A stretch of DNA of 64,000 nt from Fibrobacterota bacterium. GTDB lineage: Bacteria > Fibrobacterota > Fibrobacteria > UBA11236. This document shows, in pieces, positions 3,345 to 25,034 of this stretch; the first letter of the stretch is position 1; each line of letters starts with the position of its first letter. The position numbers and the translations under genes are program-made. The notes under the pieces are model-generated. The model was not told where the DNA came from, ran no database searches, and saw only the letters and a program-made list of their open reading frames with translations. The stretch spans positions 1 through 64,000 of the forward strand of contig JAQBPN010000127.1 of the NCBI GenBank assembly GCA_028287505.1, read 5' to 3'.

Positions 3345-4016
3345 CTAACCGAAATACGCGGGAAACCGTTCCCGGATGGACAGGAACCCTCCCTCGGACA
3401 CGATCATGTGATCGAGTAGCGGGATGCCCAGGGTCTTGGACACTTCCACCAGCCTGCGCGTGGCGATGAGATCCGATTCCGACGGCTCCAGGTTTCCGGA
3501 CGGATGGTTGTGGGCCACCAGAATGCTTACCGCGCGATCCTGGATGGCCGGGTAAAAGGTTTCCCTCGGATGGATCTGGCTCTGATTGGCCAGGCCGCGG
3601 GTGATGGGATGGACCTTGATCACCTGATTGTTTCCGTCCAGGGTCAGGACCACCACGCTTTCCTGGGCCGCGGAACGCAGCCCGCCCAACAACGGCATGG
3701 CGTCCTTGGGCGTGCGGATCTTGATCTTCTTCCGTGCGGTCAGGAAGCGGCGTGAAAACTCGATGCTGGCCAGGATTTGGCAGCCCTTGGTGGGGCCGAT
3801 GCCGCCGATATCCAGGAGCGTGTCCAGGGTCAGGTCATCCTGGAGCGCACCCAGTTTTTCCACCACTTCCGCGGCCAGGGCCAGCACGTCCTTGCCGGGC
3901 TGCCCGCGGCCCAGGATGATGGCGAGCAGCTCCGCGTTGGTGAGGCTGTCCGGGCCGGTGCCGATGAGTTTTTCCCGGGGCCATTCGGCCGGGGCTAGGT
4001 CTTTCAGGGTGTTCAT
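3345..4016 (-). CDS. radC: RadC-family JAB1/MPN metalloprotein
   Basis: A 223-residue protein. The frame is open to 4181, but ATG 4016 is chosen because AAAGGAA lies 6 bases upstream and the protein then starts at the family's usual point (MNTLKDLAPAEWPREKLI). Residues ~1-80 hold a helix-hairpin-helix-like part (LLDIGGIGPTKG). Residues ~100-223 are the RadC MPN/JAMM domain with the metal-binding motif VAHNHPSGNLEPSESD. RadC proteins were once linked to DNA repair; their biochemical role is unsettled. Single gene, facing away from the ilv operon. Confidence 0.93.
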   Translation of the reverse strand: MNTLKDLAPAEWPREKLIGTGPDSLTNAELLAIILGRGQPGKDVLALAAEVVEKLGALQDDLTLDTLLDIGGIGPTKGCQILASIEFSRRFLTARKKIKIRTPKDAMPLLGGLRSAAQESVVVLTLDGNNQVIKVHPITRGLANQSQIHPRETFYPAIQDRAVSILVAHNHPSGNLEPSESDLIATRRLVEVSKTLGIPLLDHMIVSEGGFLSIRERFPAYFG

Positions 4017-7344: not shown

Positions 7345-9336
7345 CTAAAGGGATTTCAGGAATTTGATTAGGGCGGCGGCGTCGGTGGGGGATAGGGATT
7401 TGAAGGCGGTGGCGGCTTTGGTGGCTTCGCCGGCGTGCCAGAGGATGGCTTCTTGCAAGGTTCTGGCGCGGCCGTCGTGGAGGTAGCCTTCTTCGCCGCT
7501 TACTTCGGCGGTGAGGCCGATATTCCATAGGGGGGCGGTGCGCCATTCGGATCCCGATGCGCCTTCTTCGGACAGGTTGTCCGCGAGTCCGGGTCCCAGG
7601 TCATGAAGCAGCAAATCAGTATAGGGGTGGATGGTCTGATTGCGCAATTCCGCCTTGGGATGATAGGCGCTGGTGGTGAAGGTCGGCATGTGGCAGGCGG
7701 CGCATCCGGTGCTGGTGAACAGGGACTCGCCCCGGAGGGCTTGCGGGTCCTGGAGATCCCGGCGGGCGATGATCCCCAATAGGCCGATGTAGTCGACCAG
7801 GTTTTTGAAATCGGCATCGCTGATTTCGCTGCCCGGGTTGCCGCACCCCGTTTGCTCGGAGCCGCAGTCGGGGGAAGGCAGGATGGACGTCATGACGCCC
7901 ATGTCGGTATTGAGGGCGCCGGCCACCTGATGGGATACGCTTTCCTTGCCCGCCTTCCAACCGAAGCGTCCCACGCGGGGCACTCCCGATTCGAGATCGG
8001 CCACGATTTGCACGCGGCCGGAAACGCCGTCGCCATCCGCATCGTCCGGGTCCGCCAGGGCCTGGATGGCGCTTTCCGGGATCGCTTCCAGCAAACCCAT
8101 CCCCACCAATTGCGGGGAGATGCGGACGGAAAAACGGACCGGTTCGGGACCTCCCAGGAAATCGAATTGGGGCCGGCGCAGGCCGCCGCTTTCGGTCCAG
8201 CGGGTGATCTCGATATGGCCCTCCGCGAAGCCGCTGGTCTTTTGGGGTTGCAGGACTTTTCCGAAGCGCGGATCCGGATTGCCGTTCGCATCGCCCACTT
8301 TGGCGACGAAGACGTAAAGCGGGCCGCCGAAGAAAGGCGCCAAGGCCCTGCCGTTGTTGGCGTGGCAGGCGATGCAGGAGGTGTTCACGAAATTGTCCCC
8401 GGTCTTGCCGGCCATGTCCTTAAGGATGGGAGCCACTGAGTCGCCATCCACGCCGCCGGTGGTGAAGTTGATCCTCTGGACGCGCTCACCCGCCAGGAAG
8501 GCCTGGCCGTTTCCGGGCGCGATGTTCGGCGTCATTTGCGAAAAGCGGTCGGCCGCTTTGACGGAATCCCGGTAGGGAAGGGTGGCGTGTCCCCCCAACC
8601 AGCCTTCGGCGGGAATGGGTGGCGCCACTTCCGTGAAATCCGGCTGAAGCGGAGTCGTGCCGTCATACAAGGGTGCGATGGACGGCTTGCTGAAATCCAG
8701 GGTGGCGGTGGTTCCATCCGGGACCCGGTAGGCTTGCGCGGGGTATCCGGATTTGCCGCATACGATGAAGGCATCCCGGGCCTCGCGGGTGGCATCGGAT
8801 TTGGCCGCGGCTTTCGCAGAGGAGGCAGGGGATGTTACCCCTTCAAAAACCAATCCGCCACCCAGGTTTACAAACCGCCCTTGGGTGGAGAAATTCCGGC
8901 CGAGGATGACCGCGAAATAAACGCCTCTATCTTTTCCTGGAAACCTGATCCGATCCCCCAAGGAGACTTCGCGGCGAAGAACGATTCGTCCGTCCATATC
9001 CGCCACGGTCAAGGTGGCCTTCTCTCCGGCGGACAGGGGAATCCGGGAAAGCGGTATCCGGCCATTTGGATTTAGCCGCGGCGGAAGTCTGGAAATCCCA
9101 CTGACAGCCTGGAGCGTCAATGTACCTGTCGCGTCGGAAACGGCCGGGACGCCTCCGTACTGGGCGCAGGTGACACCCTGGATAGGGTTGCTTTGGGAAT
9201 CCCGCAGCTTGAGGATGATTTCCGCCCGGATAGGTTGCGCGCCGATCAACGCGATAAGGCTTAGTGCCCCGACAGCCCAATGGTGAGACGAAGGCGGCGA
9301 GGGAGCGAAGATGCCATCCAGGCATCTGAGCCCCAT
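7345..9336 (-). CDS. Secreted di-haem thiol-oxidoreductase-like cytochrome (DHOR/DUF1111)
   Basis: About 663 residues from ATG 9336, chosen because a signal peptide follows (HHWAVGALSLIALIGAQPIRA) and GAGG precedes it by 7 bases; the open frame runs much further upstream with non-coding-like composition. The N-terminal ~150 residues are a beta-sandwich-like part ending in a GVYFAVI segment, a style usually seen at C-termini of surface proteins in this group. The remainder is a di-haem oxidoreductase with two haem-binding motifs, CIACH (residue ~319) and CAACH (~544), plus the family segments GRALAPFFGG and YLHDGRARTLQEAILWH. Likely periplasmic or surface electron transfer; substrate unknown. 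The start codon falls inside the inverted-repeat element 9262-9491. Confidence 0.85.
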   Translation of the reverse strand: MGLRCLDGIFAPSPPSSHHWAVGALSLIALIGAQPIRAEIILKLRDSQSNPIQGVTCAQYGGVPAVSDATGTLTLQAVSGISRLPPRLNPNGRIPLSRIPLSAGEKATLTVADMDGRIVLRREVSLGDRIRFPGKDRGVYFAVILGRNFSTQGRFVNLGGGLVFEGVTSPASSAKAAAKSDATREARDAFIVCGKSGYPAQAYRVPDGTTATLDFSKPSIAPLYDGTTPLQPDFTEVAPPIPAEGWLGGHATLPYRDSVKAADRFSQMTPNIAPGNGQAFLAGERVQRINFTTGGVDGDSVAPILKDMAGKTGDNFVNTSCIACHANNGRALAPFFGGPLYVFVAKVGDANGNPDPRFGKVLQPQKTSGFAEGHIEITRWTESGGLRRPQFDFLGGPEPVRFSVRISPQLVGMGLLEAIPESAIQALADPDDADGDGVSGRVQIVADLESGVPRVGRFGWKAGKESVSHQVAGALNTDMGVMTSILPSPDCGSEQTGCGNPGSEISDADFKNLVDYIGLLGIIARRDLQDPQALRGESLFTSTGCAACHMPTFTTSAYHPKAELRNQTIHPYTDLLLHDLGPGLADNLSEEGASGSEWRTAPLWNIGLTAEVSGEEGYLHDGRARTLQEAILWHAGEATKAATAFKSLSPTDAAALIKFLKSL

Positions 9337-9491
9337 ATCGATGCCTCGAATGGGGTTCAGGGCAAGGCCCCAGCAAGGCTGGGGTCCGCGCCCCGAAGCA
9401 GGAATAGTGGGCCTATTCCAAGGAGGGGCAACGCAGCCCTGGGCCCCAAGACCCGGCGAAAGCGGCTCACCATTGGGCTGTCGGGGCACTA
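9262..9491. repeat. 230-base element with perfect 26-bp terminal inverted repeats
   Basis: Bases 9262-9287 (starting TAGTGCCCCGACAGCCC) are the exact reverse complement of 9466-9491. The 178-base interior is itself stacked with hairpins: AGATGCC/GGCATCT (9309-9315/9321-9327), TGAGCCCCAT/ATGGGGTTCA (9327-9336/9350-9359), GGCCCCAGC-AAG-GCTGGGGTC (9366-9386) and GGAATAG/CTATTCC (9401-9407/9413-9419). It overlaps the start and signal-peptide codons of the di-haem oxidoreductase. No transposase ORF inside. Confidence 0.9.
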
Positions 9492-9731
9492 GGGCCGCCG
9501 CATGCGCAAAAGGCCGATGGCGATTCCAACGCTCCAGGATTTTTGCGAGGCTGTTTAGGCGGCCCACCCGGATTCCCCAAGGGTACGGCAGAGGCCTGAA
9601 TCGGCGCTCGCCGCTATTTAGAATAGCACGGGGGGAGGCGGGCGGCTGAAGCCCGCGGGTTGGCTTAAGTGACTTCCGGGAACAATCCGATTCTGCGATC
9701 GGAACCGGCTGCCGGGCCCGTTCCACCTAGA

Positions 9732-12134: not shown

Positions 12135-12500
12135 TCAGGCCTTGATTACGGCGGTGATTTTCTCTTTCAAGGTTTCCGGCTGGAAGGGCTTGACCACGTA
12201 ATTGGCCGCGCCCGACTGTAGGGCTTCGATGATCCTGGTCTTTTCCGACTCGGAAGTGACCATGATGACGGGGATGGCCTTGAGGGTCTCGTCCGCCTTG
12301 ATCTTCTTCAGCGCTTCTATGCCCGTCATATTGGGCATGTTCCAATCCATCAGAATCAGGTCGAATTTTCCGGCAGCGAGCTTTTTGAGGGCGTCCGCGC
12401 CGTCCTCCGCTTCGGTCACGTCCGTATGCCCGAGTTTTTCCAGGGTGTTCCGTTCGATACGGCGCATGGTGCTGGAATCGTCAACCAAAAGTATCCGCAT
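12135..12500 (-). CDS. cheY: CheY-type single-domain response regulator (cheY1)
   Basis: 121 residues, a bare receiver domain. Acidic pair D7-D8 (LLVDDSS), phospho-acceptor D52 (LMDWNMP), switch Thr in VTSES and the conserved Lys in VVKPFQ are all present, so it should be phosphorylated by CheA. GGAG lies 8 bases before ATG 12500. Second gene of a two-gene minus-strand operon behind cheX1 (41-base gap), divergent from cheA. Likely output is a motility or surface-behaviour motor rather than a promoter, since there is no DNA-binding domain. Confidence 0.95.
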   Translation of the reverse strand: MRILLVDDSSTMRRIERNTLEKLGHTDVTEAEDGADALKKLAAGKFDLILMDWNMPNMTGIEALKKIKADETLKAIPVIMVTSESEKTRIIEALQSGAANYVVKPFQPETLKEKITAVIKA

Positions 12501-12541: not shown

Positions 12542-13015
12542 TCAAATTTCGCTTTTGAAACTGACGATCAGGCTGAATTCGCCGAAGGGGGTATCAAAGG
12601 GGACCAGCATGGGAATGATATCCTTGGGTCCGCCTACCTCATGTCCCGCGCCGATGACCACGGTGGGGAGCGAAATGTTGATCTTGTATTGCGCCAAGTC
12701 CCGCTTGGCGGCGCCCGCGACGATGTTGGCCAATTCGCCGATGGCGTCGGTGACCATATCGTCCAAGGCCACGACCTTCATGCCCACGAATTGGCTGACG
12801 ACCTTCAGGGCCGCTATCCGCGGAAAGCTCAGGATGACGGAACCCTTGGCCCCGCCGCTCAACCCGATTATGCCCGAGACGTCGGAAAGCAGCTTCGAAT
12901 CCTTTTTCAAGGTGACCTTTCCCGGCTTGATCTCGGTTTTCATCATGGTGCGGAACGTCTCCATGGTCGCGACTACGAAAGGGTTGATATGCTCGACTCG
13001 AACCGTTGACGCCAT
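12542..13015 (-). CDS. cheX: CheX-type CheY-P phosphatase (cheX1)
   Basis: 157 residues with the CheX fold pattern. The catalytic E-x-x-N motif is E94-N97 (DAIGELANIVAGAAK), preceded by the helix DDMVTDAI. CheX proteins remove the phosphoryl group from CheY-P. GGAGAA lies 7 bases before ATG 13015. Directly upstream of cheY1, the natural substrate. One of four ExxN proteins in this window (others at 19545, 25500 and 28596). Confidence 0.92.
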   Translation of the reverse strand: MASTVRVEHINPFVVATMETFRTMMKTEIKPGKVTLKKDSKLLSDVSGIIGLSGGAKGSVILSFPRIAALKVVSQFVGMKVVALDDMVTDAIGELANIVAGAAKRDLAQYKINISLPTVVIGAGHEVGGPKDIIPMLVPFDTPFGEFSLIVSFKSEI

Positions 13016-13323: not shown

Positions 13324-15549
13324 GTGAAAGAAACCTGCCGCAAAATACTTGAAGATCTCTCGGGAGCTTTGGTGGCCGCCGAGCCCGGGGACCTTCAGGC
13401 TTTGGGGGCCCTGCACCTCAACTTTCAACAAATCCGCGAAGCCTGGACCGGCCCAGCCGCTTCCGAGGTGGCCGGCCTGTGCGCCATGGCGCAAGGACTC
13501 CTCGAAAAAATCATCATGGCGGAATCCGGAGACGCGGCTTCCGACCTCGAACGCGTTTCCGAGGCCACCTCCCTGCTCCAAGCCCTGATCTGCGAGGAAA
13601 GAACGCCACAGGAACTGGTTTTCCCTCCGGGTTTCCACGATCTGAAGCGATCGCATTCCAAAGGCGAAGGGGGTGTCGGGGAATTGGAAGACGATGCGGC
13701 CAACGCCGATCCCTCCCTGACCATGGACTTCGTGCGCGAATCCAATGAACATCTGGAAAACGCCGATGTCCTCCTGATGACTCTCGAGTCCGATCCCGGC
13801 AATGCCGAGGCCATCAACGCGGTTTTCCGGGCATTCCATACCATCAAAGGCGTGGCCGGTTTTCTCGGTTTCAAATCCATCCAGGCCTTCGCCCATGAAA
13901 CGGAAAATCTGCTGGACCTGGTCCGCATGGAAAAGCTTCGGCTCGACAGCTCGCTTCTGGACACGATATTCGCGGCCGTGGACCTTCTCAAGAAACGCAT
14001 CCAGTGGGTGTCGGAAAATGGAGGGGCCGCGTGGCCCCCGGATCAGGCCAAGGAAATGGTGTTGGTGCTGGGCATGGTAAAGGCCTCGGCGGGTGGAATG
14101 CCCGTGGAGGAGCGTCCTGCCGAACTCCCGCCGGCCCAACCGGGCATGCGCCTGGGGGAAATCCTGGTGGAAGCGGGCACCATTCCCGAGTATGCGGTGG
14201 AGGACGCTTTGCGCGCCCAGGAGGAAGTCAAGAACCCGCCCTTGGGCGAGATGTTGGTGAAAAATTCGGCGGCTACGCCCCGGGAAGTGGCGCTTGCGCT
14301 GCGCAGCCAGAAGCAGGCCAATGAAGGCGATCCGCCCGGCCCCAGGGAAACGCCCAAAGAAGCCGTCAAGGAAACGGTCAAGGTGGAAGCGGACAGGCTG
14401 GATCGGTTGCTGGATGCCATCGGCGAACTGGTGATCGCGGAAAGCATGATCTTCCAGTCTCCCGAGCTCAAAGGAAAGAAAAGTCCCGCCCTGGCCGCGC
14501 AAATGGCCCTGTTGGACAAGATCACCCGGGAGCTGCAGAAGATGGGGACGTCGCTCCGCATGGTGCCCGTGCGCCCGGTGTTCCAGAAGATGGCGAGATT
14601 GGTCCGCGACCTGTCCCGCAAGGCCGGCAAGGAGGTGGAATTCATCTGCTCCGGCGACGAGACCGAGTTGGACAAGACGGTGGTGGACAAAATCGGAGAT
14701 CCGCTGGTCCACATGGTGAGGAACTCGGTAGACCATGGTATCGAGGCGGATCAGGCCGCGCGCATCGAAGCGGGCAAGCCGATCCAGTCCAAAGTGATGT
14801 TGCGCGCCTTTCAAAAGGGCGGCAGCGTTTGCATCCAAATCCAGGACGACGGCAAGGGCCTGAACCGCGAGGCCATTCTCCGCAAGGCCCGGGAACGGGG
14901 CTTGATCAAGGACGATGGGGCGGCGTTGTCCGATCAGGAAGTCTGGCGCTTTATCTTCGAAGCCGGCTTTTCGACCGCCGCCCAGGTGACGGAGATTTCC
15001 GGCCGGGGAGTGGGCATGGACGTGGTGCGGCGGAACATCGAAGAGCTCAGGGGCAGGATCGATATCGAGAGCGCCGCGGGCAAGGGGACGACCTTCAGCA
15101 TCTGGCTGCCTCTGACCCTGGCCATCATCGATGGGATGATCGTGCGAGTGGCCCGGCAGCGTCTGGTCTTTCCGACCCTTTCCATCCTGCGCATCGTCCC
15201 GCTGAAGGCCGAAGCCATCCGGAGCATAGTGGGACGGGGAGAAGTGCTCCATCTTCAGGATGAATTGATCCCGCTCTTCCGATTGGATGGCTTGCTTCCG
15301 GAAGGCGGGTCCGCTGAGCCCGCGGCCAACCGGTTGGTGGTCATCGTGGAAAGCGGCGAGGGGAAGGTGGGCCTTCCCGTGGACGAACTGATCGGTCAGC
15401 AGCAAGTGGTCATCAAGGGACTGGGCGAGTCCATGAAGCAGATAGCGGGGCTTACGGGAGGCGCGATTCTTTCCGACGGAACCGTGGGGATAATACTGGA
15501 TGTGGACGGGCTGATGAAGGCCCCGCGCACGGAACCCGTGGGCGCATAA
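13324..15549 (+). CDS. cheA: Chemotaxis histidine kinase CheA with embedded MshEN-like motifs
   Basis: 741 residues from GTG 13324 (no good Shine-Dalgarno, so the start is the weak point). Residues 1-120: helical region of unknown role. Residues ~130-235: Hpt domain with phosphorylatable H172 (FHTIKG). Residues 276-299 and 306-329: two 24-residue RLGEILVEAG...ALRAQ-type motifs resembling the MshEN c-di-GMP-binding domain, where CheA usually has the P2 domain. Residues ~352-415: dimerisation. ~440-600: HATPase (HMVRNSVDHGIE, GRGVGMDVVRRNI). ~600-735: CheW-like domain. Autophosphorylates and feeds the CheY proteins and CheB; complexes with CheW and the receptor encoded next. Confidence 0.95.
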   Translation: MKETCRKILEDLSGALVAAEPGDLQALGALHLNFQQIREAWTGPAASEVAGLCAMAQGLLEKIIMAESGDAASDLERVSEATSLLQALICEERTPQELVFPPGFHDLKRSHSKGEGGVGELEDDAANADPSLTMDFVRESNEHLENADVLLMTLESDPGNAEAINAVFRAFHTIKGVAGFLGFKSIQAFAHETENLLDLVRMEKLRLDSSLLDTIFAAVDLLKKRIQWVSENGGAAWPPDQAKEMVLVLGMVKASAGGMPVEERPAELPPAQPGMRLGEILVEAGTIPEYAVEDALRAQEEVKNPPLGEMLVKNSAATPREVALALRSQKQANEGDPPGPRETPKEAVKETVKVEADRLDRLLDAIGELVIAESMIFQSPELKGKKSPALAAQMALLDKITRELQKMGTSLRMVPVRPVFQKMARLVRDLSRKAGKEVEFICSGDETELDKTVVDKIGDPLVHMVRNSVDHGIEADQAARIEAGKPIQSKVMLRAFQKGGSVCIQIQDDGKGLNREAILRKARERGLIKDDGAALSDQEVWRFIFEAGFSTAAQVTEISGRGVGMDVVRRNIEELRGRIDIESAAGKGTTFSIWLPLTLAIIDGMIVRVARQRLVFPTLSILRIVPLKAEAIRSIVGRGEVLHLQDELIPLFRLDGLLPEGGSAEPAANRLVVIVESGEGKVGLPVDELIGQQQVVIKGLGESMKQIAGLTGGAILSDGTVGIILDVDGLMKAPRTEPVGA

Positions 15550-15576: not shown

Positions 15577-16077
15577 ATGCCTGAAAATATTGCCAAAGAC
15601 AAGACAGGGATAGCCAAGGCGGGGAAATACCTCACCTTCCAATTGGGTCGGGAGGTGTACGGGATTGAAATCCTCAAGGTGCAGGAAATCATCGGCATGA
15701 TGGCCATCACCCATGTGCCCAAGACGCCTGCATTCGTCCGGGGCGTGATCAACTTGCGCGGCAAGGTGATTCCCGTGGTGGAGCTCCGCAGCAAGTTCGG
15801 AATGGAAAGCAAGGAAGACACCGACCGGACCTGCATCGTGGTGGTCCAGGTATCCTGGGCCGCGGCCACGGTGACCATGGGCATGCTGGTCGATGAGGTC
15901 TCGGAGGTTCTGAACGTGACCCATGAACAGATAGAAGCTCCGCCCTCCTTCGGCGCCAGCGTGGACACGGATTTCATCCTGGGCATGGGGAAAGTGGGCC
16001 AGAAGGTGGTGATGCTGCTCGACGCGGACAAGGTGCTCGCCGCCGAGGAAATAGCGGTCATCAGCAAAGTGGAATAA
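15577..16077 (+). CDS. cheW: Chemotaxis coupling protein CheW
   Basis: 166 residues, one CheW (SH3-like) domain from ~residue 17 (KYLTFQLGREVYGIEILKVQEI) with the family segments VPKTPAFVRGVINLRGKVIPVV and FGM. Couples the receptor array to CheA. 27 bases after cheA; GGAAAGGAAGA lies upstream of ATG 15577. Length is typical with a short N-terminal extension. Confidence 0.96.
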   Translation: MPENIAKDKTGIAKAGKYLTFQLGREVYGIEILKVQEIIGMMAITHVPKTPAFVRGVINLRGKVIPVVELRSKFGMESKEDTDRTCIVVVQVSWAAATVTMGMLVDEVSEVLNVTHEQIEAPPSFGASVDTDFILGMGKVGQKVVMLLDADKVLAAEEIAVISKVE

Positions 16078-16167: not shown

Positions 16168-17871
16168 ATGTTGAAAAGTCTTGGCCTGAGCGGAAAATTA
16201 TACATCGGGTTCGGCTGTGTCGTATTCATCGCCGCGGCGCTGGGCGTGTTCGCCTATACGCGCCTGCTGGCCATCAACGCGTCCTCCACGATCATCACCA
16301 AGGATTGCCTGCCCGGCGTTCTCGCCATCGGAAAAATCAACAGCTTGGCGAAGGACAACATGCGCTGGACCACGGCGACCTTCCTTGCCGACAACAAGGC
16401 CGAAGTCGCGGTCGAAGAGGACAAGGTCAAGGAAAACATGCTGGCGATGGAAAAGACCCTCAAGGAATACGAGTCCACCATCACCTATCCCAAGGACCGG
16501 GAATTGTTCGAGGCCATCAAAGCGCCGATGGAGGCGTTGCGGAAGGCCCGCACCGTGGTGTTCGAACTCAACTCGGCCGGGAAAATGAAGGAAGCCGAAG
16601 TCGCCTTGAAATCCGACGTCCGGCCGGCGAACGCGAATTTGGAGGAAGGCATCAACGCCCTCATCGATTTCAATACCGAGAACTCCGATAAGGAATCGGT
16701 CGAAATCACCTCGGCGGTGACATCGGCGAAATCCGGCATCGTGATAGGGCTGGCGCTCGCCATCGCTCTGGGCGCATTCATCGGCATCTTCCTCAGCCGC
16801 TCGATCGCCGCGGCCTTGAACCAGGTCATCACTTCCCTGTCGGCGGGCAGCGAGCAGGTATCTTCCGCATCCAGCCAGGTGAGCCAGTCCAGCCAGCAAA
16901 TGGCGGAAGGCGCCAGCGAGCAGGCTTCCTCCCTGGAAGAGACTTCCGCTTCCCTGGAAGAGATGTCCTCCATGACCAAGCAGAACAGCGAGAACTCCCG
17001 TCAGGCCAATGTCATGGCCACGGAAACCCGCACCGCCGTGGAAAAGAGCCGCGAGGCCATGAACCGCATGGGCGATGCCATCGTGAAGATCAAAGGCTCA
17101 TCCGATCAGACGGCCAAGATCATCAAGACCATCGACGAGATAGCCTTCCAGACCAACCTGCTTGCCCTGAACGCCGCTGTGGAAGCGGCCCGCGCCGGCG
17201 ATGCCGGCAAGGGCTTCGCGGTGGTGGCCGAAGAAGTGCGCAACCTGGCGCAACGCAGCGCCGAGGCGGCCAAGACCACGGCTTCCTTGATCGAGGAATC
17301 CCAACAGAATGCCAACAACGGCGTATCCGTGTCCAACGAAGTGGCGGGAATCCTCACCCAGATTGTGGAGAGCGTAAGCAAGTTGGCCCAGCTTATCGGC
17401 GAAGTGTCGGCTGCCAGCGATGAACAAAGCAAAGGCATCGAGCAGATCGGCACCGCGGTCACCCAGATGGACAAGCTCACCCAGTCCAACGCGGCCAATG
17501 CCGAGGAATCGGCGAGCGCCAGCGAGGAGTTGGCCGCCCAGGCCAAGGAGCTCGGAGACATGGTGCAGGTGCTGGTGGGCATCGTCAAAGGCGCCGGCGC
17601 CCGGGGAGAAGCGATTTCGATGGCTTCCGCCGGACCCAAGTCCGTTTCCCGCCCAACGGCCCCGGCCGTCCGCAAGGCGCCCGTTTCCGCGGCCTCCAAG
17701 CCCGTTTCCCGGAATGCCCATGGGAAAGACTGGAGCCCCGCCGGTTCCAACGGAAAGCCGGCGCACATCGGACGCAACGGACATGCCCGCGTGGCGGTAT
17801 CCTCCAATGGACATGCCCTCAACTCCGATCAGGTGATCCCCATGGACGATTCGGATATGAAGGATTTTTGA
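16168..17871 (+). CDS. Methyl-accepting chemotaxis protein without a clear HAMP domain
   Basis: 567 residues. TM1 ~10-31; periplasmic four-helix-bundle-like sensor ~35-188; TM2 ~189-210. The long cytoplasmic coiled coil starts almost at once ([20 protein letters not shown]) without a recognisable HAMP. The signalling tip is at ~320-345 ([41 protein letters not shown]). Glu/Gln-rich methylation segments flank it ([34 protein letters not shown]). The tail (~480-567) is Ala/Pro/Ser-rich and ends in an acidic DDSDMKDF. It lies between cheW and cheR, so it is probably the cognate receptor. Ligand unknown. Confidence 0.94.
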
Positions 17872-17879
17872 AATTGGAA

Positions 17880-18686
17880 ATGAATCAGGATTCTTTCGAT
17901 GAGTTCCGCTCGCTGGTCTACGCCAAGAGCGGAATCACCCTGGGCCAAGGCAAGGAAGCCCTGGTCAGTTCCCGCGTGGGCAAGCGCATGCGCCAGTTGG
18001 GCCTGGGCGATTTCCGGTCCTACCTGGATTGGGTGAAAGGCAAGGGCGGCGAAGACGAGATGGTCCAGCTCCTGGACGCCATCTCCACCAACGTCACCAG
18101 CTTCTTCCGGGAGCCGGAGCATTTCGACTTCGTCCGGGAGAAGATGACCGACTGGCTGGGGAAGAAGCAGACGCGCTTCCGCCTATGGTCCGCGGCCTCT
18201 TCCACGGGGGAGGAACCCTATACCCTGGCCATGACCCTGCGGGAGTGCCAGCCCGGGCCGGAATGCGACATCCGCATCCTGGCGACGGACATTTCCACGC
18301 GCGTCCTTGCGGCCGCGCAGGAAGGCATCTACCCCGAGTCCAAGATGTCGACCCTTCCCGGCGGCTATGCGGCGCGGTATTTCACGAAGCGGCGGGACAA
18401 GGATTCCGTGGTCTATGCCGCGGGTGAAAATCTGCGCAACCTGATCCTCTACAAAAGGCTCAACCTGGCCTTCCCTCCTTTCCCGATGCAAGGACCCATG
18501 GACATGATCCTCTGCAGGAACGTGATGATTTATTTCGACAACCCCGTGCGGGAACGGCTCCTGGCCGAATTCCACCGCTTGCTCAGGCCCGGCGGTTATC
18601 TCCTGGTGGGGCACTCCGAAAGCCTCACCGGACTGAGCGTCGGCTTCAAGAGCATCCGTCCTTCCATTTATCGGAAGGATGCATGA
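17880..18686 (+). CDS. cheR: Chemotaxis methyltransferase CheR
   Basis: 268 residues from ATG 17880; an in-frame TTG at 17868 would overlap the receptor stop and cannot be excluded. The N-terminal helical domain (~1-75) is followed by the SAM-dependent methyltransferase with WSAASSTGEEPYTLAM (SAM motif), NVMIYFDNPVRERLL and LLRPGGYLLVGHSESL. Methylates receptor glutamates using S-adenosylmethionine. Starts within a few bases of the receptor stop and overlaps cheD by 4 bases (ATGA), so it is translationally coupled. Confidence 0.95.
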   Translation: MNQDSFDEFRSLVYAKSGITLGQGKEALVSSRVGKRMRQLGLGDFRSYLDWVKGKGGEDEMVQLLDAISTNVTSFFREPEHFDFVREKMTDWLGKKQTRFRLWSAASSTGEEPYTLAMTLRECQPGPECDIRILATDISTRVLAAAQEGIYPESKMSTLPGGYAARYFTKRRDKDSVVYAAGENLRNLILYKRLNLAFPPFPMQGPMDMILCRNVMIYFDNPVRERLLAEFHRLLRPGGYLLVGHSESLTGLSVGFKSIRPSIYRKDA

Positions 18687-19159
18687 GCATTATCGTCGGC
18701 ATATCCGACATGAAAATATCCTCCGATCCGGGCGACGTGCTGGCCACCTACGCGCTGGGTTCCTGCGTGGGCCTTTCCCTGTTCGATCCCGAAAGGCGCA
18801 TCGGCGGCCTGATCCACTGCATGCTGCCCCTTTCCAAGATCGATCCGGTCAAGGCGGGAAACAATCCCTACATGTTCGTCGATACGGGGGTATCCGCCAT
18901 GCTCCAGATCCTGTTCGACATGGGCGCGCAGAGGAAAAGCCTGCAGGCCAAGGTGGCGGGCGCGTCCAAGATCATGGACGCCAACAGCGTGTTCAACATC
19001 GGCGAGCGCAACCACACGGTGTTGCGGAAAGTCCTCTGGAAAAACAATATCCTGGTTTCCGGGGAAGACGTGGGGGGCAACGCGCCCCGGACCATGTACC
19101 TGCATATGGACACCGGGAAGACGATCCTCAAGGTCGCCGGCGAAGAGAAGGAGATCTGA
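18683..19159 (+). CDS. cheD: Chemoreceptor glutamine deamidase CheD
   Basis: 158 residues with the CheD active-site residues C28 (TYALGSCVG) and H45 (GGLIHCMLP). Deamidates receptor glutamines; in several bacteria it also binds CheC/CheX-type phosphatases and stimulates them, which is relevant because cheX2 is two genes on. Start ATG overlaps the cheR stop. Normal family length. Confidence 0.95.
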   Translation: MSIIVGISDMKISSDPGDVLATYALGSCVGLSLFDPERRIGGLIHCMLPLSKIDPVKAGNNPYMFVDTGVSAMLQILFDMGAQRKSLQAKVAGASKIMDANSVFNIGERNHTVLRKVLWKNNILVSGEDVGGNAPRTMYLHMDTGKTILKVAGEEKEI

Positions 19160-19162
19160 TCC

Positions 19163-19544
19163 ATGGCCTACAACATTCTCGTGGTGGACGATTCCGCGAC
19201 CGTCAGGGCCGTCATCGCCAAGTCCCTGAACCTGGCGGGCGTGGACTTGGGCTCCCTGTTCCAGGCGGCGAACGGGGCGGAAGGCCTTGAGATTCTCCGC
19301 AAGGAATGGGTGGATCTGGTGCTGGCCGATATCAACATGCCCGTCATGGGCGGCGTGGCCATGGTGGAGGAAATGAAGGGGGATGAGTCCCTGAAGGGCA
19401 TTCCCGTGATCATCGTTTCCACCGAGGGCAGCGTCACGCGGCTGCAAGGGCTTAAGGATAAGGGCGTCAGCGCCTTTCTGCGCAAACCCTTCGCGCCCGA
19501 GGATCTCAAGAGAGCGGTGGACTCCCTGTTGAAAGGAGACGGCA

Positions 19545-19552
<8 letters not shown>
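19163..19552 (+). CDS. cheY: CheY-type response regulator (cheY2)
   Basis: 129-residue receiver domain. D9-D10 (VVDDSAT), phospho-acceptor D56 (LADINMPVMGG), Thr/Ser of VSTEGS and the Lys of LRKPF are present. It has an insert-like stretch, NLAGVDLGSLFQA, before beta-2. No output domain. 3 bases after cheD; its 3' end overlaps cheX2 by 8 bases, pairing this regulator with a dedicated phosphatase. Confidence 0.95.
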
Positions 19553-21981
<2,429 letters not shown>

Positions 21982-23456: not shown

Positions 23457-25034
23457 TCAGGGCAGTTTTTTCTGTCCCAGGGGCGGCAGTTCGATCGCGA
23501 AGCGGGTGCCTTCTCCCGGCCTTGAATAGACATAGAGATTGCCCCCGCGATCGCTGACGCAGCGGGCGGCCAAGGCAAGCCCCAGGCCCCGGCCGGAAAC
23601 CATGTCCGCTTCCTGCCGCGTAGTGAACCGTTCCAGGAAAATCAGTCCCAGCTTGCCCACGTCGTCCAAGGCATCGGCATCCGCGCGGGAAAGCAGCCCC
23701 AGCGCCACGCCCCTGTCGGCGATGACGGCGGGATCCATGCCCCTGCCGTCGTCGCGGATGCGCAGGAAAATCCGATCTTCCTCGGCCACGTATTCGAACC
23801 CGATTTCGGCTTCGCCCTTGCCAGCGGCTTCGCGCTCGGCCGGGGATTCTATGCCATGGTCCACCATGTTGCGCAGGATATGCACCAAGGCCTCGTCCAC
23901 GCGGGAGAACGATTCCGGATGCACGTCGCCGGTATTGCTGGTGACGCGGAAGTTGACCTGCTTGCCCAGGTTGTGGGCGATGCGCTCCACCAGGTTCCCG
24001 TATTTGCGCGCCAGGTAGGCGGGACTCAGGAAGGGCAGCTTGCGGGTGGCCTCGATGACGGCGCGCAGGGGCGGTTCCAGCCTGGCCGGATCCAATTCGG
24101 CCGAACCCGCGACCAGGCGATCCAGTTTCCATTTCAGGATGCGCGTCATGGCGTCCTGGCCTTCGCCCGCAATCAGCTTCATGGCCCTGATGAGTTCGTC
24201 CAGCTGCATCCGCAGGCCCGCCAGGGAAGCGGTCAATCTCGACGAGGTCCTTTCGGAACCCGCGGTCGGATGTTTCAGCGCTTCCAACAGGTCTTCCGAT
24301 TCCTGCGCTCCGGCCGCCAGGCTTTCGAACCCGAAAGCGCCGGCGTTGCCTTTGACCATGTGCAGCTCCCGGAACAGGCGTTGGCCCGCGCTCTCGTCGG
24401 CGCTTATGCTTTCAGCGGTGCCTACGCTTTCAGCAACGCTTTCGCTCTTAGCGACGCTTCCCTGCCATAGGCCCGGCTGGTTTTCCCCGGCGCGCGCGCG
24501 GGAGGCCAGGAATCTTTCCCATTCGCGCCGCGCTCCTTCCAGGCGCATGCGGGCGTCCTCCAGGAAGGCGCCCACCGTTTCCGGAGGGTTGGCGGCGAGG
24601 GCCAGTACGTCGCGGATTTCCAGCTTGTGCCGCTCGCGCTCCTCTTCAAGCTGCCGCACCATGGCGCGGCTGGGAGCGGTGTCGATGGCGAACACGGCGA
24701 TGGCGATCAGGTTTCCGTTCCCATCCTCCAGCTTGCGATACGCCAGGCGGACGGGGCCTTCGTCTTCTTTCCTACCGCTCCAGATTTCCTGCACCGGAGC
24801 CAATGGCGCCAATTTGTCCCAGCGCATATCGCGATGCCGCTTGCCTACCAGATCGAGCCACTTGCCGAATTGGAGTTCCTGTTCCGCGTTGAGGCCGAAG
24901 GCCTTGTTCAACGGGATGCGGGCCGCGGGCGCGCCCGGTCCGCCAGCGGCCGACAGTTGCCCGGCCAGCGCGGCGGAAGACGTTACCGTTCCGTCCAGAT
25001 GGATGAGGAAAAAGCCTGCGCTACCGGCGTCCAT
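23457..25034 (-). CDS. CheA-like hybrid-free histidine kinase with Hpt and ATPase domains only
   Basis: 525 residues. Residues ~1-120 are PAS-like (GFFLIHLDGTV); a coiled coil follows (~125-180); then a low-complexity Ser/Ala/Glu linker (SVAKSESVAESVGTAES). The Hpt-like domain has H225 (FRELHMVKGNAGAFGF). The C-terminal HATPase of CheA type has the N box HILRNMVDHGIE and G boxes RIRDDGRGMD and SGRGLGLALA. No CheW-like domain and no obvious CheA dimerisation domain, so it probably does not join a receptor array. The receiver gene 25056-25442 lies immediately upstream on the same strand and is the likely phosphorylation target. Confidence 0.88.
   Translation of the reverse strand: MDAGSAGFFLIHLDGTVTSSAALAGQLSAAGGPGAPAARIPLNKAFGLNAEQELQFGKWLDLVGKRHRDMRWDKLAPLAPVQEIWSGRKEDEGPVRLAYRKLEDGNGNLIAIAVFAIDTAPSRAMVRQLEEERERHKLEIRDVLALAANPPETVGAFLEDARMRLEGARREWERFLASRARAGENQPGLWQGSVAKSESVAESVGTAESISADESAGQRLFRELHMVKGNAGAFGFESLAAGAQESEDLLEALKHPTAGSERTSSRLTASLAGLRMQLDELIRAMKLIAGEGQDAMTRILKWKLDRLVAGSAELDPARLEPPLRAVIEATRKLPFLSPAYLARKYGNLVERIAHNLGKQVNFRVTSNTGDVHPESFSRVDEALVHILRNMVDHGIESPAEREAAGKGEAEIGFEYVAEEDRIFLRIRDDGRGMDPAVIADRGVALGLLSRADADALDDVGKLGLIFLERFTTRQEADMVSGRGLGLALAARCVSDRGGNLYVYSRPGEGTRFAIELPPLGQKKLP

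Follow-up and report, generated by a model that had tools for sequence, protein, structure and literature searches.

The window, i.e. the whole stretch of 64 000 nt that was analysed, carries a che cluster with the gene for the central kinase CheA. Features of the cluster, and the domains and motifs of CheA, are distributed as follows.

12135..12500, − strand: CheY-like receiver, divergent from cheA
12542..13015, − strand: second CheX-like phosphatase, divergent from cheA
13324..15549, + strand: cheA, 741 aa (ORF translation, Pfam domains, full-length model)
13324–13656 (CheA residues 1–111): N-terminal helical bundle
CheA residues 135–221: Hpt/P1 domain (Pfam)
14149..14310, + strand (residues 276–329): MshEN_N (NF053729, AlphaFold2, Foldseek/VIA, PDB profile search)
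14149..14220, + strand (residues 276–299): motif I, RLGEILVEAGTIPEYAVEDALRAQ, contact set R-L-G-V-L-Q
14221..14238, + strand (residues 300–305): spacer EEVKNP, 6 residues
14239..14310, + strand (residues 306–329): motif II, PLGEMLVKNSAATPREVALALRSQ, contact set P-L-G-V-L-Q
CheA residues 350–407: P3 dimerisation domain, H-kinase_dim (Pfam)
CheA residues 459–598: P4 domain, HATPase_c (Pfam)
CheA residues 604–733: P5 domain, CheW-like (Pfam)
15577..16077, + strand: cheW, 3′ of cheA (Pfam CheW, 4e-40)
16168..17871, + strand: methyl-accepting chemoreceptor (4HB_MCP_1 + MCPsignal)
17868..18686, + strand: cheR
18683..19159, + strand: cheD
19163..19552, + strand: cheY-like receiver
19545..20039, + strand: cheX-like phosphatase
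20036..21076, + strand: cheB

The Hpt, H-kinase_dim, HATPase_c and CheW domains all lie on one chain within the che cluster, which identifies the protein as CheA. The cluster is flanked by two distinct CheX-type phosphatases (12542–13015, − strand, and 19545–20039, + strand), and a gene near it (23457–25034, − strand) encodes a kinase of CheA-like or hybrid type, which has Hpt and HATPase_c domains but lacks a CheW domain. Further away, a long ORF (7345–9726, − strand) contains two CxxCH haem-binding motifs (CIACH and CAACH, found by eye only); its product is likely, judging from these motifs, a secreted protein resembling di-haem oxidoreductases. In CheA itself, residues 1–111 form a confidently modelled helical bundle ahead of Hpt, without a Pfam match. 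Relatives from planctomycetes and deltaproteobacteria share this bundle, their match starting near residue 7–12. When the full CheA model is searched by fold, hits to CheA core domains fill the result, which is uninformative on the MshEN part and the N-terminal bundle.

The segment of interest lies between Hpt (135–221) and H-kinase_dim (350–407). An earlier note, made from the DNA alone, had described two 24-residue motifs with a 6-residue spacer at 14149–14310 and placed them between the Hpt and dimerisation domains; translation (24 + 6 + 24 residues) and the Pfam domain limits agree with it in every coordinate. Membership in the MshEN family was assessed with the 53-position NCBIfam profile NF053729 (‘cyclic di-GMP-binding domain-containing protein, MshE-related’; curated cut-off 38 bits). 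Against whole CheA the match spans positions 1–53 of 53 with E=8.1e-9 and 35.1 bits, slightly below the cut-off, whereas the segment alone scores 40.9 bits, above it. In a six-frame search of the 6 Mb genome, the profile finds exactly 14149–14310 (E=3.4e-9, 39.4 bits), while the best non-MshEN match reaches only E=0.67. A profile built from 40 MshEN sequences outside CheA gives the CheA linker 36.6 bits, compared with 7.0 for the best of 5000 linker shuffles. In the reverse direction, a profile of the CheA segments searched against the PDB retrieves PilF (E=2.6e-32), MshE (5htl, E=1.5e-11) and PilB (∼1e-11); for the CheA segment the best PDB sequence match is GSPII-C of Thermus thermophilus PilF (E=1.5e-9).

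The predicted fold leads to the same family. Modelled by AlphaFold2 with 22 relatives as input, residues 267–341 form four helices with a core pLDDT of ∼90, and the best PDB matches of this model in Foldseek are PilF-GSPIIB and MshE, each with c-di-GMP. Superposition on the MshE·c-di-GMP complex (5htl_B) gives 0.9 Å over 57 columns, with a TM score of 0.71 by query length and a probability of 1.00. VIA-align with MshE 5htl gives Z 10.2 and an rmsd of 4.9 Å over 64 residues, this rmsd being large because the alignment runs into the low-confidence tail. Matches at probability near 1 are confined to MshEN/PilB structures. The MshEN-type domain proposed in the earlier note is thus borne out by profile, predicted fold and, as described below, conservation. 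The prediction yields the MshEN-type fold of 5htl; this fold is a four-helix bundle and not the two-helix bundle that had been anticipated. Residues 276–329 are a genuine MshEN_N, the GSPII N-subdomain.

The profile check proposed at the outset, for which the lack of a T2SSE_N match was to count as a refutation, formally came out negative. The 90-position Pfam model PF05157 (MshEN, T2SSE_N) has no match in CheA at E≤10 and none on contig C90; NF053729 does match. In a PilB encoded by this genome, C39:78080–78334 is matched by PF05157 and the adjoining 78335–78493 by NF053729. PF05157 misses CheA because it models the C-subdomain that adjoins the 53-aa motif, and CheA carries only the N-subdomain. 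PF05157 was therefore rejected as a test of membership, since it covers the other subdomain. The absent C-subdomain is no obstacle to ligand binding, because isolated MshEN_N binds c-di-GMP alone with a KD of 0.35 µM, slightly tighter than the full domain (Wang et al., PMC5013675).

In MshE, c-di-GMP is contacted in each motif by Arg1, Leu2, Gly3, Leu17, Leu21 and Gln24 (PMC5013675). The contact sets of CheA, RLGVLQ and PLGVLQ, are identical to those of MshE at 9 of 12 positions, with two Leu→Val replacements and one Arg→Pro. Both motifs retain the Gly of position 3 and the Gln of position 24 (G278, Q299, G308 and Q329). Motif I departs from the consensus at positions 11 (Thr) and 17 (Val) and has Gly at position 10 (G285). 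Motif II departs more, with Pro at position 1, Ser315 for Gly at position 10 (Ser/Ala in orthologues), Ala-Ala at 11–12 and Val for Leu at 17. Position 1 is Arg276 in motif I, whereas in motif II the Arg (in an extended definition, Lys or Leu) is replaced by Pro306.

This Pro had already been raised as a caveat. The replacement is real and is largely answered by T. thermophilus PilF GSPII-C, in which motif II starts with Pro335 and the affinity for c-di-GMP is sub-µM, similar to that of MshEN (PMC11731258, PMC12002112); it is, however, not the sole deviation, as positions 10, 11–12 and 17 show. Arg, Lys or Leu at position 1 is not strictly defining, because GSPII-C with Pro still binds, and its motif II contact set, PLGVLQ, is the same as that of CheA at six positions out of six. 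Lys or Leu at motif position 1 also work in PilF GSPII-B (PMC11731258, PMC12002112). Motif II position 1 does matter, since Ser for Arg there abolished c-di-GMP binding in PilF GSPII-A constructs, and in GSPII-A consensus motifs alone were no guarantee of binding (PMC11731258, PMC12002112). The GSPII-C precedent is imperfect, because GSPII-C has a third motif. Separately, a PilB-type ATPase of the same genome (L006, on C39) has several consecutive MshEN-type motifs, one of them beginning PLG, so that CheA is not the only protein of this genome with a Pro at motif position 1.

Comparison with characterised systems delimits what the CheA segment shares. With the MshEN domain of Vibrio cholerae MshE (5htl) it has in common the two 24-residue motifs, the four-helix bundle and the 9/12 contact residues; MshE, however, has a 5-residue spacer instead of 6, Arg38 where CheA has Pro, Gly instead of Ser at motif II position 10, and a C-terminal MshEN_C subdomain as well as an ATPase, whereas the window protein has the N-subdomain only, inside CheA. 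Like PilF GSPII-C, the segment has Pro at motif II position 1, Val at 17 and a longer spacer, but GSPII-C resides in a pilus ATPase, carries a third motif and a C-subdomain, and keeps Gly at motif II position 10. The segment also gives a weak alignment with NF008411, the NCBIfam profile of NfrB (E=0.0028); in Escherichia coli, NfrB is a c-di-GMP-activated membrane glycosyltransferase and not a kinase. Relative to canonical five-domain CheA (E. coli, Thermotoga maritima), the Hpt, P3, P4 and P5 domains are common and modelled on known structures; unlike the canonical enzyme, the window CheA has no detected P2/CheY-binding domain, carries MshEN_N instead and has the extra N-terminal helical bundle.

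Conservation follows the contact residues. A whole-protein search finds orthologues in the genus at identities of 78% (G005), 65% (G001) and 64% (G002), one in each of these three further genomes. None of the four genus orthologues has lost either motif, and motif II position 1 is always Pro. Among these four, 10 of the 12 contact positions are invariant versus 14 of the 36 others (Fisher p=0.009); when seven CheAs of the genus are considered, the proportions are 8/12 and 8/36 (p=0.008). Contact positions are the best-conserved columns of CheA MshEN_N, and Gly278, Gln299, Gly308 and Gln329 are invariant across 20 aligned CheAs, rows that were chosen for having the motif. The same genome encodes a second CheA (C39:134306–136156, equivalent to L155:6307–8157; matched over C39:134384–136147 at 59% identity), with counterparts in G005 and G004. 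It has MshEN_N at the same place and is followed by CheW and chemoreceptors; its motifs begin RLG and, for motif II, KLG, nearer the consensus than those of the window CheA.

Beyond the genus, CheAs from about eight phyla have MshEN_N in the corresponding position; 25 of 90 sampled CheAs carry it. Those in the tree of the CheA core belong to Fibrobacterota, Planctomycetota, Zixiibacteriota, Myxococcota-type deltaproteobacteria, Nitrospirota, Spirochaetota and Sumerlaeota, and one further case, a Schekmanbacteria row, lies outside the tree. The window CheA and its paralogue fall in one supported clade. A single origin of MshEN-CheA is unsupported: with uneven sampling, some long branches and rows taken from a similarity search, the tree needs at least nine gains or losses on well-supported branches, so that MshEN_N appears to have been gained or lost repeatedly. 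Natural loss is seen in the L105 CheA and decay in the L028 CheA; thus the module is dispensable for CheA as such. In L028, a Phycisphaerae CheA, the decayed segment (near 3379, ORF offset) reads QLDQNAVEQG...QGPRSQ, and its close relatives L024 and L025 are intact.

In the full-length model, the module comprises helices 277–333, with low-confidence stretches on either side (262–266 and 335–354), which fits a domain that sits on a flexible tether. Between P1 and P3, no Pfam match to P2 at E≤10 and no separate folded unit were found in the linker, P2 profiles being known to be insensitive (PMC10542144). MshEN_N takes the place of P2 between Hpt and P3, where no P2 is detected.

From these comparisons, c-di-GMP binding by the CheA module is likely. 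Most likely, a single c-di-GMP would be bound by MshEN_N between P1 and P3 and would tune the access of P1 to P4 or CheY, a reading that we hold to be probable. The module is inserted in the flexible P1–P3 tether, where P2 would sit, and would bind one c-di-GMP, one guanine to each motif. The first guanine would be stacked upon by Arg276; at the second, the stacking Arg would be replaced by Pro306, in the manner of Pro335 in PilF GSPII-C, and hydrogen bonds would come from the Gly278 and Gly308 backbone and the Gln299 and Gln329 side chains. Binding would then stiffen the tether or alter what it touches, with consequences for the approach of P1 to the P4 kinase (or CheY), by which the cellular c-di-GMP level would be coupled directly to chemotaxis output. 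For the direct effect of c-di-GMP on CheA kinase output, its sign included, we argue by inference only.

An alternative of some weight, although an unlikely one, is that the fold is degenerate and non-binding, its role being that of a folded spacer or of a docking module for CheY, CheX or CheW that replaces P2. It would suit the location of the module, which is the usual site of a CheY-docking domain, and the state of motif II, where Pro at position 1 and Ser or Ala for Gly at position 10 are found in 4/4 orthologues; moreover, non-binding family members are known in Xcc GspE (PMC5013675) and PilF GSPII-A (PMC11731258, PMC12002112). Docking of CheY, however, would not require Gly3 and Gln24 to be conserved in both motifs. 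The conserved residues are those that contact the ligand and not those of the surface, motif I is near-perfect, and motif II has the contact set of a proven binder.

The Pro at the stacking position of one guanine site could also point to another ligand or nucleotide, e.g. cGAMP or another cyclic dinucleotide, and V. cholerae MshEN binds 3′,3′-cGAMP weakly (PMC5013675, figure legend). Such a specificity is nevertheless very improbable in view of the guanine-selecting Gly3 backbone contacts kept in both motifs and the diguanylate cyclase domains in the genome. Scarcely credible is a resemblance due to chance or to a generic helical hairpin unrelated to MshEN. A DUF4388-like hairpin was considered for its weak overlap with motif I only (E=0.063, 13.8 bits, below cut-off) and was rejected as the identity of the segment; the full-length NF053729 match at E about 1e-9, the shuffles at ≤7 bits versus 36.6 and a predicted fold matching nothing but MshEN/PilB structures at probability near 1 all speak against it. 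Binding of c-di-GMP remains the preferred reading.

The genome provides a setting for it. Nine GGDEF domains over the Pfam cut-off, two PilZ domains, several MshEN-type proteins (PilB among them) and the flagellar protein FliG are encoded. The messenger is thus plausible, and so is a motility output. The pairing of MshEN with CheA is not new: it has been known since 2016, when Wang et al. placed CheA among the MshEN-associated domains and proposed that the association brings c-di-GMP into regulatory processes (PMC5013675); in that work such fusions are only listed (Supplementary Table 4, Fig. 3b). The main text of a 2023 survey of CheA architectures does not mention the pairing (PMC10542144), and the open literature searched yielded no experimental test of MshEN-CheA or of c-di-GMP binding to CheA. 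The window CheA is therefore a further example of a kind apparently without experimental test. Worth keeping here are the PLG variant with its binding precedent and the two MshEN-CheA paralogues in one genome.

Known links between c-di-GMP and chemotaxis, such as the action of MapZ on CheR1 or chemoreceptors that bind c-di-GMP, are indirect or concern other parts of the pathway (reviewed in PMC12564702). No link from this settle-or-move signal to chemotaxis could be shorter than a c-di-GMP receptor domain within the central kinase. A broader proposal, which we put forward tentatively as a possibility, is that MshEN-CheAs constitute a widespread class of kinases in which c-di-GMP acts as a direct intracellular input at the place of P2, bypassing chemoreceptors and PilZ adaptors. 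If this were true, the two CheAs of this genome, with PLG and KLG in motif II, may differ in affinity and would respond at two thresholds of the messenger.
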